DNA from: Eubacteriales bacterium
GTDB lineage: Bacteria > Bacillota > Clostridia > Lachnospirales > Lachnospiraceae
Direction: 5' to 3'
DNA length: 35,434 nt
Assembly: GCA_030533235.1 (NCBI GenBank)
Contig: JAUNJN010000025.1
Location: 1-35,434, forward strand
Shown here piece by piece: positions 3,305 through 10,493 of the stretch. A program made the position numbers and the translations under genes. The notes beneath the pieces were generated by a model that was given only the letters and a program-made list of their open reading frames with translations, did not search any database and was not told the origin of the DNA. Each line of letters starts with the position of its first letter. Within the stretch, counting starts at the first letter, position 1.

Positions 3305-3724
3305 ATGGATATTACGATTTGTTTAAAAGCTAAAAAATTTGATAACAATTCTATGCAAGCACTTGCCGAATACTGCAAGCGCATATCGATTTTTTGTAAG
3401 GTTTCTGTTAATTTCTGCAAGACATACGAAGAGTTTCCCATATCAGACAGTCCGCACAGTATATCCTTCGTGGTGGCTCCCGGAAAAAATACGCCAAGTT
3501 CTCCTACACTGGCCGAGCAAATAAAGCAATTACAGGTAAATGGTTATTCCTCCATTTACTACTACGTGTGTGAAGATGCTTCAACAGGACAAGGATTTTT
3601 CCAAAAATCCGGCATTTTAAATCTGTCCTGCTTTTCCATGTCCCGCAATACAACCGCAATTGTGCTGACTGAACAGCTATATCGTGCATTTACAATTCTG
3701 AACAATATCACCTATCACAAATAA
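3305..3724 (+). CDS. Divergent RlmH-family (SPOUT) paralogue without the SAM-binding motifs
   Basis: A 139-residue protein that aligns along its whole length with RlmH, the 23S rRNA pseudouridine-1915 N3-methyltransferase. The N-terminus MDITICLKAKKF and the helix ALAEYCKRISIFCKV match the usual first strand and helix. About 20 residues of the following charged region are missing. The segment SISFVVAPGKNTPSSPTLAE matches the DGK..SSE region. The C-terminus TEQLYRAFTILNNITYHK is the full RlmH tail. The SAM loop, normally GGSxG, reads EDASTG (90-95), and the FPHQ motif reads SRNT (113-116), so it should not bind SAM or catalyse alone. A GGTGA ribosome site precedes the ATG. It ends with TAA directly against the stop codon of the convergent rlmH. 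It is either a degenerate duplicate or a partner subunit; family membership is clear to me by eye but has not been tested by search. Confidence 0.75.
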   Translation: MDITICLKAKKFDNNSMQALAEYCKRISIFCKVSVNFCKTYEEFPISDSPHSISFVVAPGKNTPSSPTLAEQIKQLQVNGYSSIYYYVCEDASTGQGFFQKSGILNLSCFSMSRNTTAIVLTEQLYRAFTILNNITYHK

Positions 3725-4174
3725 TCAGGATAACGTTTCCAATTGTTCAAGCAGCATCACACGCATGAGCTGATGAGGAAATGTCAGCTTTGAAAAGCTT
3801 AATTTATAGTTTGCACGCCGTGCTACCATTTCCGACAACCCAAGAGAGCCTCCGATTACAAAAACAAGATCACCGTCTGTCTGCCGGCTTTGTTCTGTCA
3901 TATGCCTATTTAGTTGCTTTGTTGTAAGCATCAAACCATCAATGCACAAAGCATATACATAATCATCATGCTTTATATTCCCCAAAATTCGCTTTCCCTC
4001 AATTTCCCGAATCTTTTCCTCCTGCGCCGAACCTGCATTCTTCGGAATACTCTCATCTTTTACTTCAATTAAGGAAAACACATGTCGTCTCTTTATTTGT
4101 TTTATTGTAGCTTCAATCTGATTTCTGTAGTATGCTTCTTTAACATTTCCCACTGCAATTAATTTGATTTTCAT
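3725..4174 (-). CDS. rlmH: RlmH-type 23S rRNA (pseudouridine1915-N3)-methyltransferase, C-terminal tail missing
   Basis: RlmH methylates pseudouridine 1915 in helix 69 of 23S rRNA on assembled 70S ribosomes, using SAM. This is a 149-residue SPOUT protein with the usual N-terminus MKIKLIAVGNVKEAYY, the SAM-knot motif FVIGGSLGLSE (GGSLG at 108-112) and LSFSKLTFPHQLMRVMLLEQ (127-144). Family members are about 155-159 residues long and end in YRAF-I--G--YHK. Here the protein stops after LEQLETLS, so the tail is replaced by four residues. No other frame downstream on this strand encodes the tail, so a simple frameshift is unlikely. In characterised RlmH the tail takes part in the shared active site of the dimer. 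The missing tail is present in the convergent paralogue, whose stop codon abuts this one. The putP terminator lies upstream, so rlmH probably has its own promoter. Confidence 0.88.
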   Translation of the reverse strand: MKIKLIAVGNVKEAYYRNQIEATIKQIKRRHVFSLIEVKDESIPKNAGSAQEEKIREIEGKRILGNIKHDDYVYALCIDGLMLTTKQLNRHMTEQSRQTDGDLVFVIGGSLGLSEMVARRANYKLSFSKLTFPHQLMRVMLLEQLETLS

Positions 4175-4369: not shown

Positions 4370-5914
4370 CTATACATTTCCGTTTTTCACATCGTCGAAC
4401 TCTTTCATGACATCATCACCCATCTTTGGTGTAAGCAGCGATACAACAACGATAAAGAACAGACTCACAAAGAACCCGACAAGCAATGAATATATTCCTG
4501 TATAGGTTGCAAGTGTAACCTTTCCGTCCACTCCTGACATCGTAAATGCTTTTACATAATCCCAAATGATTACTGTAAGTCCGCCGCTTACCATACCTGC
4601 GGCAGCACCTGCAAGATTAATGCGCTTCCAGTAAAGAGACATAAGAATTGTAGGTCCGAATGCACTACCAAGTCCTGCCCAAGCATCCGACACCAATGCC
4701 ATGATGCTTGAATTCGGATCAAGTGCAATCACATACGCAATCGCCGCAATAACAAGTACTGTGATTCGGCTAACCCAAAGAACTGCCTTATCTGACATCT
4801 TCTTAAAGAAAATCCCGCTACAAAGATCCTTAGCAACTGCCGAAGACGATACGAGAAGCTGCGAATCTGCAGTTGACATAATTGCCGCAAGAACACCACA
4901 CAGCAAAATACCTCCGACAAACGGCAAGTTTGTCTCATCCATGAAAATTTTCTTAATCATCTCAATAAATACATTTTCACTGCCTGCAGAATCCAAAACC
5001 ATCGGATACAAATACGCTCTTCCGATGACACCAATCACACAAGCAACTGCAAGTGAAATAAGAACCCAGACAATTGCAACCTTTCTGGACTTTGACAATT
5101 CCTTTTCGTCGCGAATTGCCATAAAGCGAACAAGAATATGCGGCATACCACAATAACCAAGTCCCCATGCAAGCTGTGAAGCAATACTTGTTGCTGAAAT
5201 CGGTTTTCCGTTTTCATAGAAAATATTAAGAAAATCCTTTGCATCGACATTTAAATTGCTTGCAATCAGATTTGGTGTAATCTGGCCCGCCCCCATAAGC
5301 ATAACAGCCACAATCGGAACGGCAAGAATACCTACCAACATCAATGTACCCTGAATAAAATCTGTTTTACATACCGCAATAAATCCGCCCAAAAACGTAT
5401 ATGCTAAAATAACGACCATACCGATTGTAAGTGCCCACTTGTACTCGATATTCATAACCGAAGAAAACAGCTTACCGCCTGCTGCAAATGCAGAAGCCGC
5501 ATATACAAGGAAAAAGATAACAATCACAACTGCAGAAATAGCCATCAAAATATGATTTTTATCGCGGAAACGATTACTCAAGTATTCCGGAATTGTCATT
5601 GCATTTCCTGCTTTAATTGTGTATCTGCGGAGTCTTCCCGACACAAACAGCCAGTTAAGTACGGTTCCGATAAACAAACCGATTGCAATCCATGCCTGGT
5701 TGGCACCGAGTGCATAGATACATCCCGGAAGCCCCATTAAAAGCCATCCACTCATATCAGATGCCTGCGCAGAAAGCGCTGCCACCCATCCTCCTAAATT
5801 ACGTCCGCCCAAGAAATAATCATCGGCGTTTTTACTTTTTTTTGCGCTTGTTGCTCCAATTAATAGCATTCCCGCCATATAACAGGAAAACGCTGCAATT
5901 ACCCATGCATTCAT
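4370..5914 (-). CDS. putP: Sodium/proline symporter (SSS family)
   Basis: A 514-residue integral membrane protein of the sodium:solute symporter family, with about 12-13 hydrophobic segments and the LeuT fold expected. PutP imports L-proline with sodium, for nutrition or osmoprotection. Recognisable PutP features are DDYFLGGRNLGGWVAALS near residues 31-48, SAQASDMSGWLLMGLPG at 48-64, and the gating segment LCGVLAAIMSTADSQLL in the middle. The length is normal for PutP. It starts 3 nt after the thiN stop, with only a weak ribosome site, so translation is probably coupled to thiN. It is the last gene of the long operon and is followed by a strong terminator. The subtype proline is likely but not proven. 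Confidence 0.9.
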   Translation of the reverse strand: MNAWVIAAFSCYMAGMLLIGATSAKKSKNADDYFLGGRNLGGWVAALSAQASDMSGWLLMGLPGCIYALGANQAWIAIGLFIGTVLNWLFVSGRLRRYTIKAGNAMTIPEYLSNRFRDKNHILMAISAVVIVIFFLVYAASAFAAGGKLFSSVMNIEYKWALTIGMVVILAYTFLGGFIAVCKTDFIQGTLMLVGILAVPIVAVMLMGAGQITPNLIASNLNVDAKDFLNIFYENGKPISATSIASQLAWGLGYCGMPHILVRFMAIRDEKELSKSRKVAIVWVLISLAVACVIGVIGRAYLYPMVLDSAGSENVFIEMIKKIFMDETNLPFVGGILLCGVLAAIMSTADSQLLVSSSAVAKDLCSGIFFKKMSDKAVLWVSRITVLVIAAIAYVIALDPNSSIMALVSDAWAGLGSAFGPTILMSLYWKRINLAGAAAGMVSGGLTVIIWDYVKAFTMSGVDGKVTLATYTGIYSLLVGFFVSLFFIVVVSLLTPKMGDDVMKEFDDVKNGNV

Positions 5915-5917
5915 ACG

Positions 5918-6568
5918 TTAATCTTTTGTCTCCATTACCAACAAATACCCATCTTCAATGGTAATGCGACATTCCTCCTCTCTCATCTCGTTACTGATAC
6001 CCAGTGTTTCTTCTTTTATCATAGTTGCATCCTGTAAATTATACAAAAAACCGGTCAGATTAATTCCCTTCACCGTATCCGAATATGGGATCAACGAAAT
6101 ATACTTTCCATACTGCGTTTTTTTGTACAACGTTAGCATGCGATCTATCATTCGTATTTTATTATGACTGTCATATATAACAGCCTCAATACCGCTCATT
6201 CGACAGAGCTTTAGCAATGCAAGATTCCCCTGCATGTGATCAAATCTCGTACCGGTAGCGCCAACAAGAATTATCTGACTCGGACGCCTCAAAAGTGCCT
6301 GTTCCACAGCCACATGCGTATCTGTATAATCCTTCATGGGATTCAGTTTGATAACATGTTCAAAATTCTCGTAAGCAATCTTTGTTTGCTCACTTGCAGA
6401 ATCAAAATCACCGACCGCAAGATCCGGTTTTATTTTAAATTTTTCAAGTGTATCCAAACCGCGATCTACGCCAATCACATATGCACCTTTATACTGTCCC
6501 ATAAGCATTGACAATACGGATTCTTCTACGGTTCCTCCCGTAACAACCACTACGGTATCTTTATTCAT
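5918..6568 (-). CDS. thiN: Thiamine pyrophosphokinase
   Basis: A 216-residue enzyme that transfers pyrophosphate from ATP to thiamine, giving thiamine pyrophosphate in the cytosol. Family motifs are visible in order: VVVTGGTVEES at the N-terminus, GVDRGLDTL, AVGDFDSAS (the GDFDS metal/ATP motif), KDYTDTHVAVEQAL (the D-x-TD motif) and GATGTRFDHMQGN. The C-terminal beta-domain that helps bind thiamine is present. The length fits the YloS/ThiN type. In Firmicutes this gene commonly closes the prkC-rsgA-rpe run, as here. It begins 21 nt after rpe with a GGTGAAGG ribosome site. I see no TPP riboswitch in the window. Confidence 0.94.
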   Translation of the reverse strand: MNKDTVVVVTGGTVEESVLSMLMGQYKGAYVIGVDRGLDTLEKFKIKPDLAVGDFDSASEQTKIAYENFEHVIKLNPMKDYTDTHVAVEQALLRRPSQIILVGATGTRFDHMQGNLALLKLCRMSGIEAVIYDSHNKIRMIDRMLTLYKKTQYGKYISLIPYSDTVKGINLTGFLYNLQDATMIKEETLGISNEMREEECRITIEDGYLLVMETKD

Positions 6569-6589
6569 GAACCTTCACCACACAACCTT

Positions 6590-7243
6590 CTATGCTTCCA
6601 AAATATTTTTGAATGCTTGTACATTTCGCATAATATCCCCGTTAAATACGGCCGATCCGGTTACAATTACATTTGCACCCGCTTGTAAAACCTGTCCGAC
6701 ATTTTCCAAACGAATTCCTCCATCCACCTCAATATGAAGTGATGAATTATATTTTTTTGCCCATGTACGCACGGTCCGAACACGCTCAAATGCTTCCGGC
6801 ATAAATTCCTGTCCGCCAAATCCCGGCCGGACACTCATAATCAAAACTAAATCAACAAGATCTATATATGGTTCCAAAACGCAAACCGGTGTTTCCGGAC
6901 TGATTGACACTCCAACCTTTACGCCTGCATCTCGTATTGCTTTTATTGTTTTATTTAAATCCTCGCACGCTTCATAGTGAACAGTAATGGAATCCGCTCC
7001 CACTTTTTTGAAGGTCTCAATATAACGAATCGGATCCATAATCATTAAATGCACATCGAAAAACTGCTTCGAAATCTTTCGAAGTGATGAAATCACAGGC
7101 GGACCAAACGAAATATTCGGTACAAAGCATCCGTCCATAACATCAAGGTGTAACCATTCAACCCCTGACTGCTCTAATAATTTGACATCTCGTTCTATGT
7201 TGTTAAAATCAACTGCCAATAATGATGGTGCTAATATATTCAT
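6590..7243 (-). CDS. rpe: Ribulose-phosphate 3-epimerase
   Basis: A 217-residue TIM-barrel enzyme of the pentose phosphate pathway that interconverts D-ribulose 5-phosphate and D-xylulose 5-phosphate. Typical motifs are APSLLAVDF at the N-terminus, HLDVMDGCFVPNISFG with catalytic aspartate and metal ligands, DVHLMI, MSVRPGFGGQEF, and EVDGGIRLENV with the second catalytic aspartate. The GSAVF phosphate-binding loop is near the end. The length is normal. The start lies 1 nt after the rsgA stop, and its AGGAG ribosome site is inside the rsgA end, so the two are translationally coupled. Its place beside rsgA and prkC is conserved in many Firmicutes, though the functional reason is not obvious. 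Confidence 0.96.
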   Translation of the reverse strand: MNILAPSLLAVDFNNIERDVKLLEQSGVEWLHLDVMDGCFVPNISFGPPVISSLRKISKQFFDVHLMIMDPIRYIETFKKVGADSITVHYEACEDLNKTIKAIRDAGVKVGVSISPETPVCVLEPYIDLVDLVLIMSVRPGFGGQEFMPEAFERVRTVRTWAKKYNSSLHIEVDGGIRLENVGQVLQAGANVIVTGSAVFNGDIMRNVQAFKNILEA

Positions 7244-7244
7244 A

Positions 7245-8141
7245 TTACCATCTCCTTTTATTCTTCAGCTCTTCATAAAGCTGTAAATAATTGTCGTAAC
7301 GTAAGGAACTGATTTTCCCTTCCTCCACAAATTGCTTCACCAGACAATCCGGTTCTTTCACATGAACACAACCGACAAATCGACATTTCCCTTGACACTC
7401 ATCAAATTCCGGATAGTAGTTCTGCAACTGTTCCGGCATAACCTCTTCTAAAAAAAGAGAGCTAAAGCCCGGTGTATCCATTATATACGTATCACTGCCT
7501 AATCCCAAAAGCTCTGAATGTCTGGTCGTATGCTTACCACGTTTAATTTTCTCACTGATTGCACCTGTCTGAACAGAAGCCTCCGGCATAATTGCATTTA
7601 GCAAGGTTGATTTTCCTACACCGGAGGGACCGGCAAACACCGTTGTTTTTCCTGCAATTAATTTTTTTAGAGTTTCAACTCCTGCATCGAATGTATTTGT
7701 CATGCAATAAGAAGTTGTGGTTATGACAGCATCATAACCACAATTCTCATAAATTTCCTTTATTCTGTTTGCATCGTCCGCACAAACAAGATCGGACTTA
7801 TTGAAGCAAATGAGGGTCGGTACATGTTCAAACTGCATGCGAATCAGAAATCGATCTAACAAATTGTAATTCGGTTTTGGATCAGCAAGTGCAAAGACAA
7901 CAACCGCCTGATCAACATTCGCAACGGCAGGACGCAACAGTTTGTTCCGCCGTTTGAGAATCGACACAACATGTCCCGTCATCGCATCCTCATCCAAAAT
8001 CTCAATTTCCACGTCATCACCGACGGCCGGCTTCATTCCCTGACTTCGAAATGCGCCCTTCGCCTTACACTCAAATATACGTCCGTCCGACAAATGCACA
8101 TAATAAAATCCACCGACACCTTTAACGATTTTACCCTTCAT
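7245..8141 (-). CDS. rsgA: Ribosome small-subunit assembly GTPase RsgA
   Basis: A 298-residue, circularly permuted GTPase that binds the immature 30S subunit and drives late assembly. It has an N-terminal OB-fold (about 1-75), then the GTPase motifs in permuted order: NKSDL (G4), GPSGVGKSTLLN (G1/P-loop), TTRH (G2 area) and DTPGFSS (G3). The C-terminal zinc knuckle is CQGKCRFVGCVH followed by PDC. The length is usual. It starts 5 nt after the prkC stop with no strong ribosome site of its own, so coupling to prkC is likely. In Bacillus the orthologue (YloQ/CpgA) is a substrate of PrkC and lies beside it in the same way, which supports a shared signalling role. Confidence 0.96.
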   Translation of the reverse strand: MKGKIVKGVGGFYYVHLSDGRIFECKAKGAFRSQGMKPAVGDDVEIEILDEDAMTGHVVSILKRRNKLLRPAVANVDQAVVVFALADPKPNYNLLDRFLIRMQFEHVPTLICFNKSDLVCADDANRIKEIYENCGYDAVITTTSYCMTNTFDAGVETLKKLIAGKTTVFAGPSGVGKSTLLNAIMPEASVQTGAISEKIKRGKHTTRHSELLGLGSDTYIMDTPGFSSLFLEEVMPEQLQNYYPEFDECQGKCRFVGCVHVKEPDCLVKQFVEEGKISSLRYDNYLQLYEELKNKRRW

Positions 8142-8146
8142 ATATA

Positions 8147-10468
8147 CTACTGTGTTTCCTCACTGAAATTCGAGCCCACTGATGATCCAAATTCATTTGT
8201 TACATTATTGTTTTCATATAAAATAACAACTTGAGCGGAACCTGTTTTATCCGTATAACCTGCTCTCGAAATATTAAATGTATGTGTTCTTGCATCCGGA
8301 CCGATACTCCACATCTGCTCATCAATCGGAACACCATTAAATAATATCTGCACAGTTACGGAATAACCATCATAGGATTCATTTGAGATAGATACAGAAC
8401 CGCTTACATTCAATGTATATGTCACGGTCTTTTCTTCCGGACCTTCGCTGATTACGATATCAACCGTTGTATCCTCTGCAACCTCTGTATTCGCAACCGG
8501 ATTTTGCTTTATTACCTGATCCTTTGGAGTCGTATCACTATTTTCATATGTTATTGTACCGAGCTTGAGATTTGCAGCCTCCAATGATTGTCTTGCCTGT
8601 GTCTCTGTCAAACCATTTAAGTTTGGTACGTTTACCTTCTTAACCTCGGAACCGTTACTGATAATAACCTTAACCTCGGAACCCTTTGGTGCCATACTGC
8701 CTGCTTCCGGCTCCGTCTTAATACAGAGATCCTTCTCTACCTCGTCGCTGAAGGAATATCCGTGAACAGGCTTAAAGCCTGCTTCTTCAAGTATGGTACA
8801 CGCCTGCTGATCGGTATATTTTGATACATCCGGTATTTCAACCGCCTCAGCACCTGCACTTACCTTTAACACAATTTCTTCATTGATGTCGACCATCTCA
8901 TCCTTTTTGAAATTCTGATCAAAGACATAACCTTCCTGCACTTCGTCATTTTCTTCCTGGACAATCTTAATCTTATCTTCCGGGAATCCCATATTTTTAA
9001 GCATCTTGACAGCGGCATCCTCCGAATAACCTAATACATCGATCATCGGAAGCTCGCTCACAAGCTCTTCCGTATCCGTATCTTCTGTAGACTTGCTTTT
9101 ACCAAATTTGAAGATACCGGTCAACTTACCGAGTACAACCATAAGCACGATAGCAATAATAACGGCTGTTACAACACCTGCAATCGTGACTGCTTTTCGA
9201 AGTCCCGGATCAATCTCTCCGTTTCCCTCATCTTCTTCATAATCGTCATCTTCGTAATCCGCAACTTTTTTGATACTGTTTTTCTTTACCGGAACAGGTT
9301 CTTCCTCTTCAAATGCATCCTCCCATGGGTCCTCATTTAACAGACTGTTGATTTTCTGGTTATTAACCGGCATCATGGAAATACCGGATACACCTGCAGT
9401 TCCCCCGGTGATTTCTCCCATCTCATTTTGAACCGGCGGGTTGTTGAATGTATTAAGCTGATTGTTTGTATATGGATTGTTATATCCGGCATTGTTGTAT
9501 GCCGCATTTCCGTAAGCATTTGTGTCATATGTATCCGTAGACGGATCCTTGTACGCGCTTCCGTCACGGATCGCACGAACATCCTCCTTCGTCCACTCCT
9601 GCGTCGGGCTGTTCGTAATAGCTGTCGGAGCAACAACAATATCGATATTTGGATTATTCTGAACACGCTTTAAGTCTGCAATTAACGCACTTGCCGTAAG
9701 ATATCTGCGCTCCGGTTTCTTCTGCGTTGCCTTCATAATTACCTTCTCAAAGCTGGAATAAATATCCGGATAATACTGTCTCGGCGGGATCATATCATTT
9801 TGAATATGCATCAAAGCAACGGATACATTGTTATCCCCTTCAAAAGGAACACGTCCCGTTACCATCTCATACATTGTCACACCAAGTGAATAGATATCAC
9901 TACGCTCATCACTGTATCCACCTCTTGCCTGCTCCGGAGAAATATAATGAACACTTCCGACTGCACCGGAAGTCAACGTGTTTGAAGACGCAGCTCTCGC
10001 AATACCGAAATCCGTAACCTTGATATTTCCGTTTTTGGCAACAATAATATTTTGAGGCTTAATATCTCTATGTATGATATGATTTTCATGTGCAGCCTCA
10101 AGACCTGATGCAATCTGAATTGAAAAATCTATGGCCTGCTCCATGCCAAGCCTTCCGTTTTGCTGAATATATTCCTTTAACGTAATACCATCCACAAGTT
10201 CAAGAACAATAAAATAGATACCCTCGTCATCATATACATCATATACATTTACAATATTCGGATGTGTCAGGCCGGCAGACGCCTGAGCCTCTGTCTTAAA
10301 TTTCGTTACGAAGTTTTTATCATTGCAAAATTCCGGCTTTAACACCTTAATTGCAACATTTCGATTGAGTCTGTGATCACGTGCCTTATACACAATAGAC
10401 ATACCGCCTGCGCCAACAACCGCAAGAATCTCATATCTGTCACATAACATCATTCCTGGTTTCAACAT
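8147..10468 (-). CDS. prkC: PASTA-domain Ser/Thr protein kinase (PrkC/Stk type)
   Basis: A 773-residue membrane kinase that senses muropeptides or lipid II and phosphorylates cell-wall, translation and metabolic targets. The kinase domain (about 1-275) has the glycine loop GAGGMS (19-24), lysine AIK (41), HRDIKPQN (133-140), DFG (153-155) and the activation segment up to SPEQARGG. An Asn/Tyr-rich linker with repeats such as AYNNAGYNNPYTNN and acidic stretches follows. One membrane helix, VTIAGVVTAVIIAIVLMVVL, lies near 435-455. Outside are three PASTA repeats, then about 95 residues rich in predicted beta-strands (YTLNVSGSVSISNESYDG) that are not PASTA. It lies next to its phosphatase stp. 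A 16-nt palindrome lies in the 48-nt gap upstream. Confidence 0.96.
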   Translation of the reverse strand: MLKPGMMLCDRYEILAVVGAGGMSIVYKARDHRLNRNVAIKVLKPEFCNDKNFVTKFKTEAQASAGLTHPNIVNVYDVYDDEGIYFIVLELVDGITLKEYIQQNGRLGMEQAIDFSIQIASGLEAAHENHIIHRDIKPQNIIVAKNGNIKVTDFGIARAASSNTLTSGAVGSVHYISPEQARGGYSDERSDIYSLGVTMYEMVTGRVPFEGDNNVSVALMHIQNDMIPPRQYYPDIYSSFEKVIMKATQKKPERRYLTASALIADLKRVQNNPNIDIVVAPTAITNSPTQEWTKEDVRAIRDGSAYKDPSTDTYDTNAYGNAAYNNAGYNNPYTNNQLNTFNNPPVQNEMGEITGGTAGVSGISMMPVNNQKINSLLNEDPWEDAFEEEEPVPVKKNSIKKVADYEDDDYEEDEGNGEIDPGLRKAVTIAGVVTAVIIAIVLMVVLGKLTGIFKFGKSKSTEDTDTEELVSELPMIDVLGYSEDAAVKMLKNMGFPEDKIKIVQEENDEVQEGYVFDQNFKKDEMVDINEEIVLKVSAGAEAVEIPDVSKYTDQQACTILEEAGFKPVHGYSFSDEVEKDLCIKTEPEAGSMAPKGSEVKVIISNGSEVKKVNVPNLNGLTETQARQSLEAANLKLGTITYENSDTTPKDQVIKQNPVANTEVAEDTTVDIVISEGPEEKTVTYTLNVSGSVSISNESYDGYSVTVQILFNGVPIDEQMWSIGPDARTHTFNISRAGYTDKTGSAQVVILYENNNVTNEFGSSVGSNFSEETQ

Positions 10469-10493
10469 AACAATCTATCCTTTCTGTTATATC

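Follow-up and report, generated by a model that had tools for sequence, protein, structure and literature searches.

Two convergent RlmH-like genes at the locus

The window, that is the whole stretch of DNA analysed here (35,434 nucleotides, contig JAUNJN010000025.1 of the Eubacteriales assembly GCA_030533235.1), carries two genes of the RlmH family, called A and B below, which run towards each other up to their stop codons. Their features are the following.

3725-4174, minus strand: gene A, tail-less RlmH, predicted SAM-binding subunit (149 aa), from PF02590 and the residue sets
3305-3724, plus strand: gene B, RlmH devoid of the SAM site, predicted tail or RNA-side subunit (139 aa), from PF02590 and the residue sets
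3839-3853, minus strand: glycine-rich SAM loop GGSLG of A, aa 108-112, from the alignment
3770-3781, minus strand: FPHQ of A, aa 132-135, where H134 corresponds to E. coli H129, from the alignment
3728-3745, minus strand: eroded end QLETLS of A; full-length RlmH has here 16 residues after the E138 equivalent, ending in YHK
3377-3382, plus strand: K25-R26 of B, corresponding to E. coli R25 and R26, invariant in 58 aligned B proteins
3671-3685, plus strand: EQLYR of B, aa 123-127, with the E138 and R142 equivalents, from the alignment
3713-3721, plus strand: YHK of B, aa 137-139, equivalents of Y152, H153 and R154, from the alignment
3722-3727, both strands: convergent stop codons in direct contact, TAA of B (3722-3724) and TGA of A (3725-3727), gap 0

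Both proteins exceed the 27-bit cut-off of Pfam PF02590, A with 138.3 bits (E 2.8e-40) over profile positions 1-141 of 154 and B with 55 bits (E 1.3e-14) over positions 1-154 of 154. The C-terminus of A reads ...LLEQLETLS (minus-strand ORF 3725-4174) and that of B EQLYRAFTILNNITYHK (plus-strand ORF 3305-3724). Nine NCBIfam RlmH equivalog models are also matched by both proteins, which stay under every cut-off; with the best model, NF000985 (cut-off 172), A scores 163.1 and B 47, so the RlmH equivalog score is not reached.

The sequence-only reading of this DNA had described A as keeping GGSLG and FPHQ without the tail, and B as having the full tail with a degraded SAM loop and FPHQ. The ORF check, the alignment and the end of the PF02590 match at position 141 of 154 confirm the description of A; that of B is borne out by its alignment to ordinary RlmH, which places CEDAS at the GGxxG site and MSRN at the FPHQ site, close to the EDASTG and SRNT quoted at the time. 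The reported adjacency of the two stop codons is equally correct. The equivalents of R25 (as K), R26, E138, R142, Y152, H153 and R154 (as K) are kept in B. Neither A nor B unites in one chain the SAM site (GGxxG, H129) and the catalytic tail (R142, Y152, H153), and the eight residues of the SAM-site and tail-side sets defined below are all present across A plus B combined. Since A is without the tail and B without the SAM site, neither gene on its own qualifies as an RlmH enzyme.

That A might have a frameshifted tail in the window was considered and rejected: the DNA downstream of A is gene B, and tail loss is found in 80 unique A proteins. Upstream of A (window 4370-10474, minus strand) lie genes for a sodium:solute symporter, a thiamin pyrophosphokinase, a ribulose-phosphate 3-epimerase, the GTPase RsgA and a PASTA kinase, RsgA being another ribosome-related gene.

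Division of the active-site residues between A and B

In E. coli RlmH, according to those parts of the structural and mutational study that are used here (PMC5430550), the active site is shared between monomers: one provides the SAM pocket (e.g. L72, I74, G103-G107 and L122-L127, with H129) and the other the conserved C-terminal tail, with the triad E138, R142 and Y152. Likely RNA-binding residues are K11, K42 and R43 in the SAM-side monomer and R25, R26, R142 and R154 in the tail-side monomer. Activity is undetectable upon substitution of E138, Y152, H153 or R154, kcat/KM is reduced at least 30-fold in R142A, and partial activity is retained in H129A, H129 not being essential. The second SAM site of the homodimer is empty below 500 uM, its affinity being near millimolar (PMC5430550).

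We counted these residues, on E. coli numbering, in unique rows of 98 full-length RlmH (F), 80 A and 83 B. Identical sequences were left out beforehand, as were fragments shorter than 130 (A), 110 (B) or 140 (F) residues, the A of G574 among them, loci from the contig search not re-searched as whole genomes, G1042 and G1043 (the genomes G005 and G222), G1438 (whose coordinates are those of T. wiegelii, G1040) and G452. Rows with a GG motif off the pattern were typed by hand, G696, G1421 and G1430 as A and G729, G1049, G469 and G477 as F. In the counts below, those of the GG motif and the YH end are partly circular, because these motifs served to sort A from B; G9, R25, R26 and R142 are independent of the sorting, and H129 (in the HQ motif) was an alternative criterion for later-added rows only.

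SAM-site set whole (G9, G103, G107, H129): F 98/98, A 80/80, B 0/83
Tail-side set whole (R26, R142, Y152, H153): F 98/98, A 0/80, B 83/83
G9: F 98/98, A 80/80, B 17/83
G107: F 98/98, A 80/80, B 0/83
H129: F 98/98, A 80/80, B 1/83
K or R at 25: F 97/98, A 41/80, B 83/83
R26: F 98/98, A 13/80, B 83/83
R142: F 98/98, A 18/80, B 83/83
Y152: F 98/98, A 1/80, B 83/83
H153: F 98/98, A 0/80, B 83/83

E138 is still present in 73/80 A. After it come exactly 16 residues in 83/83 B and 98/98 F, and 5-22 in A. The invariant columns are E22, K25, R26, S66, E123, Q124, R127, I131, Y137, H138 and K139 in 58 aligned B, and G9, E59, G80, I107, G108, G109, S110, G112, S126, T131 and H134 in 56 aligned A.

The residues lost and kept by A and B match those that the E. 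coli structure assigns to each monomer, the RNA-binding R25 and R26 included, and the pattern at these two positions is a match beyond the residues on which the earlier reading was built. The SAM-side RNA residue K11 goes against the simple prediction, as this position is hydrophobic in A and F and K in 77% of B. B has a gap at the K42 and R43 positions, and most F carry T or A for R43. At interface position 74 most B have P or S in place of a hydrophobic residue.

The pair in place of full-length RlmH

A and B occur together in 78 distinct genomes (71 in the layout survey described below and 7 more), most genomes of the co-occurrence survey being drafts. Each of the 78 has two PF02590 matches (G009 has three) and never an additional full-length RlmH; nor was A found together with full-length RlmH in any genome examined. 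The sequence-only reading had named a complete third RlmH elsewhere in the genome as an observation that would speak against it. The window's assembly (2.28 Mb, 67 contigs, 87% complete) holds no other PF02590 match, and in a one-contig genome of the same genus (G006, 99% complete) A and B are the only ones. Within this genus, 30 of 37 genomes, the window's included, have the pair, five have one full-length RlmH and two, which are 79% and 64% complete, have none; the 18 genomes with a completeness of 90% or more and a contamination of 5% or less divide into 16 with the pair and 2 with the full-length gene. Chance, or an oddity of one genome, was rejected on the 30 of 37.

In a sample of 392 genomes of the order, 21 contain A, 20 contain B and 17 contain both; over the 345 genomes that have a match, Fisher's test gives p 2.5e-22. 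By genus, 12 have both, 2 A only, 1 B only and 136 neither (p 6e-15), and since genomes share descent both values overstate independence. The 345 comprise 17 with A and B, four with A only, three with B only, one contig-edge fragment, six multi-match genomes that turn out to carry full-length genes, whole or broken, and 314 whose single match is taken as full-length. This typing was checked by searching 30 genomes again, where 28/28 single matches tested reach profile position 154, as do all order-sample single matches among the matches listed. The same replacement is seen between sister genera: the pair is found in 10/10 genomes, four of them single-contig, of a Thermoanaerobacter-like genus (in the family of G1296, to which T. 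wiegelii belongs), and one full-length RlmH in 10/10 genomes of its two sister genera. Co-occurrence and the exclusion of the whole enzyme, as read from these genome sequences, show A and B to stand in place of full-length RlmH.

Nine genomes are exceptions. Relatives that keep the short rlmH without B, which the earlier reading had also seen as unfavourable to it, amount to only four genomes without detected B (G457, 92% complete, G560, G567 and G574), which belong to a single divergent family (f5) and have a completeness of 76-92%. B without A or full-length RlmH is found in G399 (98% complete, in 250 contigs, of which a 7.3-kb one holds B), G427, G465 and G831, where B begins at base 6 of its contig. 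B accompanies a full-length RlmH, without A, in Paenibacillus alkaliterrae DSM 17040 (G1041).

Beyond the window's genome, a B-profile search gave clear B-type proteins in at least 8 of 391 genomes of the class and at least 6 of 398 of the phylum, which are minimum counts, because weak B proteins get scores similar to those of full-length RlmH. The order, family, class and phylum searches together place B in at least 16 family codes; named carriers are Thermoanaerobacter wiegelii Rt8.B1 and Youngiibacter fragilis 232.1.

Some other arrangements were met on the way. G009 has, besides the usual A-B pair, one more B gene, on contig C48 of 4.4 kb (L115:940-1365). G452 was rejected as a pair, its overlapping fragments looking like a frameshifted full-length gene. 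Two full-length-sized rlmH-like genes lie in G358, on the same strand 2.6 kb apart (C1:4540042-4540515 and 4543160-4543633), one of them with an internal stop, and also in G474, on contigs C188 and C189 of an assembly that is 6% contaminated. No PF02590 match was found in 47/392 order genomes, near-complete ones included (e.g. G050, G054 and G055), so complete loss of RlmH is possible in this order.

Arrangement of the two genes

Among 71 pair genomes, A and B are convergent within 60 nt in 44, convergent but further apart in three, on the same strand in eight and on different contigs or far apart in 16. The 44 close pairs include 26 that overlap, 11 by 17 nt and 11 by 10 nt, with overlaps up to 29 nt. 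In the one-contig genome G057, A is at 0.27 Mb and B at 2.60 Mb; in G023 both lie near contig ends, so that some apparently unlinked cases may be assembly breaks. As the pair persists where the genes are unlinked, the link between A and B does not rest on adjacency alone. The abutting stop codons had been taken as the sign of a rearrangement that replaced the tail of A; with layouts ranging from a 29-nt overlap to unlinked genes in these 71 genomes, we reject this reading of them.

Genes for a sodium:solute symporter and a HAD protein flank the pair in the four genus pair genomes compared, as in the window, and the full-length rlmH loci of three other genus members share no such neighbour within 6-8 kb. 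In 10/30 genus pair genomes (e.g. L067 in G034), A and B share 17 nt at their 3′ ends. With this overlap the last codons of A are antisense to conserved tail codons of B, and evolution of the end of A may thereby be limited.

A proposed heterodimeric enzyme and its alternatives

We consider that A and B together make up an obligate heterodimeric RlmH, with one subunit each, at a probability of about 0.85. The proposal that one subunit serves SAM and the other provides the tail is strongly supported by comparison, through the complementary residues, the co-occurrence and the exclusion of full-length RlmH. In sequence, A retains the knotted SAM pocket and is without the catalytic tail and most tail-side RNA-binding arginines, and B retains the tail and the tail-side RNA-binding residues and is without the pocket. 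The two are predicted to dimerise antiparallel, like RlmH, and A to bind one SAM. The E138-R142-Y152 triad of B, with H153, K154 and K25/R26, would then cover the SAM site of A, the same residues may hold helix 69 of 23S rRNA, and the A-B dimer would methylate pseudouridine 1915 at N3. Only the mixed pair should be active, and judging from the genomes many Gram-positive bacteria appear to carry the split enzyme. The RlmH homodimer being already asymmetric (second SAM site near millimolar), losing one site should cost little. A point against the heterodimer is that H129, missing from B, is non-essential in E. coli (PMC5430550, as far as used here).

It is improbable that A works as a homodimer with another tail, B being a regulator or acting elsewhere. 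The SAM-site set in 80/80 A, E138 in 73/80 and the four genomes with A and no detected B would suit such an enzyme, but Y152 is missing in 79/80 A, H153 in 80/80 and R142 in 62/80, and in the E. coli data drawn upon, substitutions of E138, Y152, H153 or R154 are inactive and R142A has a kcat/KM at least 30-fold lower (PMC5430550). Moreover, the A C-termini listed have by eye no common new motif, and B keeps in 83/83 sequences catalytic residues needless for a mere regulator.

We find it no more credible that the A-B heterodimer modifies a different RNA site. Partners in new dimers can change target, and pseudouridine 1915 is assigned here by analogy with RlmH; however, in 83/83 B the tail-side RNA residues R25, R26, R142 and R154 are either present or exchanged for a similar residue, and the pair replaces full-length RlmH both within the genus and between sister genera.

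As judged by dN/dS, close pairs show A and B to be under purifying selection. In the 14 lowest-dS pairs listed for each gene, B has values of 0.06-0.29 and A of 0.04-0.19, apart from 0.53 and 0.55 in two pairs that both involve G696; the medians of all usable pairs, 0.37 for A (n=85) and 0.42 for B (n=60), are higher, perhaps from saturation. That A and B are decaying remnants of RlmH, the rRNA mark being lost, is the least probable of these explanations: each gene looks defective alone and the 47/392 order genomes without a match suggest that loss is tolerated, but dN/dS is low in most close pairs, the tail residues are invariant in B from 16 family codes, and the A and B reading frames are present in 30 genus genomes and matched in 10/10 Thermoanaerobacter-like ones.

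Relation to known systems

The proposed heterodimer of A and B shares with RlmH/YbeA/OrfX (PF02590) the fold family, the SAM-loop and tail motifs and, as the consulted parts of PMC5430550 describe it, the composite active site at the dimer interface. RlmH is one gene forming a homodimer, while A and B are two genes with complementary losses. On the sequence evidence, the best description of A/B is a heterodimeric RlmH variant encoded by two genes; the two would satisfy the definition of RlmH jointly, not singly. For annotation, A and B both match the RlmH family and neither should be active alone.

The nearest parallel, on the portions of PMC10570016 used, is SerRS2-alpha/SLIMP of metazoan mitochondria, likewise a heterodimer from a homodimeric ancestor, in which one subunit is without a domain and the other without the active site. 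That system is an animal tRNA synthetase, in contrast to the bacterial SPOUT methyltransferase with a divided composite site considered here. METTL3/METTL14, DNMT3A/DNMT3L and T. brucei PRMT1 ENZ/PRO also associate an active methyltransferase with an inactive relative, needed or regulatory. According to the sections of PMC10908127 relied upon, the inactive partner of this type activates, stabilises or regulates; B, on the other hand, is predicted to supply catalytic residues to A, whose own are lost. Yeast Ymr310c (COG2106) has been suggested as an inactive SPOUT subunit in a heterodimer, but it belongs to another SPOUT family, was put forward as a possibility, and no complementary loss is described in the part of that work cited (PMC1829167). 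The word 'heterodimer' is absent from the main text of a SPOUT review (PMC9508554, main text only). In line with the sequence-only reading, which knew of no heterodimeric RlmH, no split RlmH was found in the literature by titles and abstract openings, most subscription papers and bioRxiv being outside this scope.

If the heterodimer is real, nature would have dissected a half-of-sites enzyme in A/B, evolution having sorted the residues by the monomer that supplies them. The division agrees with the RlmH model drawn from mutants and ribosome-free crystals, and as A and B can be mutated separately, they would offer a clean test of RlmH asymmetry.

Probable origin and possible spread of A and B

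In a quick tree of 218 rows, B forms one clade of 77 rows (SH-aLRT 100), on long branches that shared losses could have drawn together. The best match of B is another B and not a full-length RlmH in 21/21 lineages sampled, coming from another lineage in 16/21 and from the same genus in 5/21. It looks from these comparisons as if B arose once, as one lineage.

Repeated origins seem likely for A, each from a resident RlmH that lost its tail, most clearly in Thermoanaerobacter. The A of this group is sister to the full-length RlmH of the sister genera (tail columns dropped; bootstrap 100, SH-aLRT 97), and that of T. wiegelii adjoins the same 370-aa neighbour, which we take to be htrA, as rlmH does in 5/5 sister loci compared. 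The A of family f24 groups with the full-length gene of its own family (86/79; tail columns dropped). A single A clade is present in 0% of 200 bootstrap trees and rejected (p-AU 0.038) with the tail columns dropped and the sister genera added; in the first tree of A and F, without sister-genus rows, it was not rejected (p-AU 0.70). The tail-dropped tree, which has few columns and a bootstrap that had not settled, needs 11 changes to A (8-11 over bootstraps), of which the starred branches force only 2. In G747 the loss is limited to YHK. Together the trees, the place of the T. wiegelii locus and the YHK-only loss suggest that A arose more than once by tail erosion, with moderate evidence for its polyphyly outside Thermoanaerobacter. 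Replacement of the original tail by rearrangement, as once proposed, is not borne out; A seems to have been eroded in place.

B may have arisen once and spread, either sideways or by descent accompanied by many losses, resident RlmHs then losing their tails more than once. We give even odds to a fuller scenario, in which B, a single tail-donating lineage, passed among distant Bacillota and captured one resident RlmH after another, whose redundant tail eroded until the heterodimer became obligate, in a constructive-neutral ratchet. Candidate stages of this capture would be full RlmH plus B (Paenibacillus alkaliterrae), YHK-only loss (G747), half-eroded A at the ancestral rlmH place (Thermoanaerobacter) and fully eroded A (the window's genus). 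If repeated capture holds, it would provide a replicated natural experiment on the passage from homomer to obligate heteromer.

The lone B of P. alkaliterrae possibly represents the first stage of capture, or else a contaminant contig. It is located at L150:4523-4924, near a large restriction-like ORF which presumably resembles a type I restriction subunit; G+C is 42.5% in this contig stretch and 48.5% around the full-length RlmH gene.

A search of plasmid and phage records and viral contigs with a B query gave no mobile carrier of B among the matches listed. The query matched 23 plasmid and 21 phage records, all below 60% identity, and the best 20 of these 44 matches (10 each) are all 453-480 nt long, as full-length RlmH is; viral contigs gave two weak loci. 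Among these full-length-sized RlmH matches, two of the records filed as plasmids exceed 2.6 Mb and several of the phage records are tiny and unannotated, and some of the records look like misfiled bacterial chromosome.
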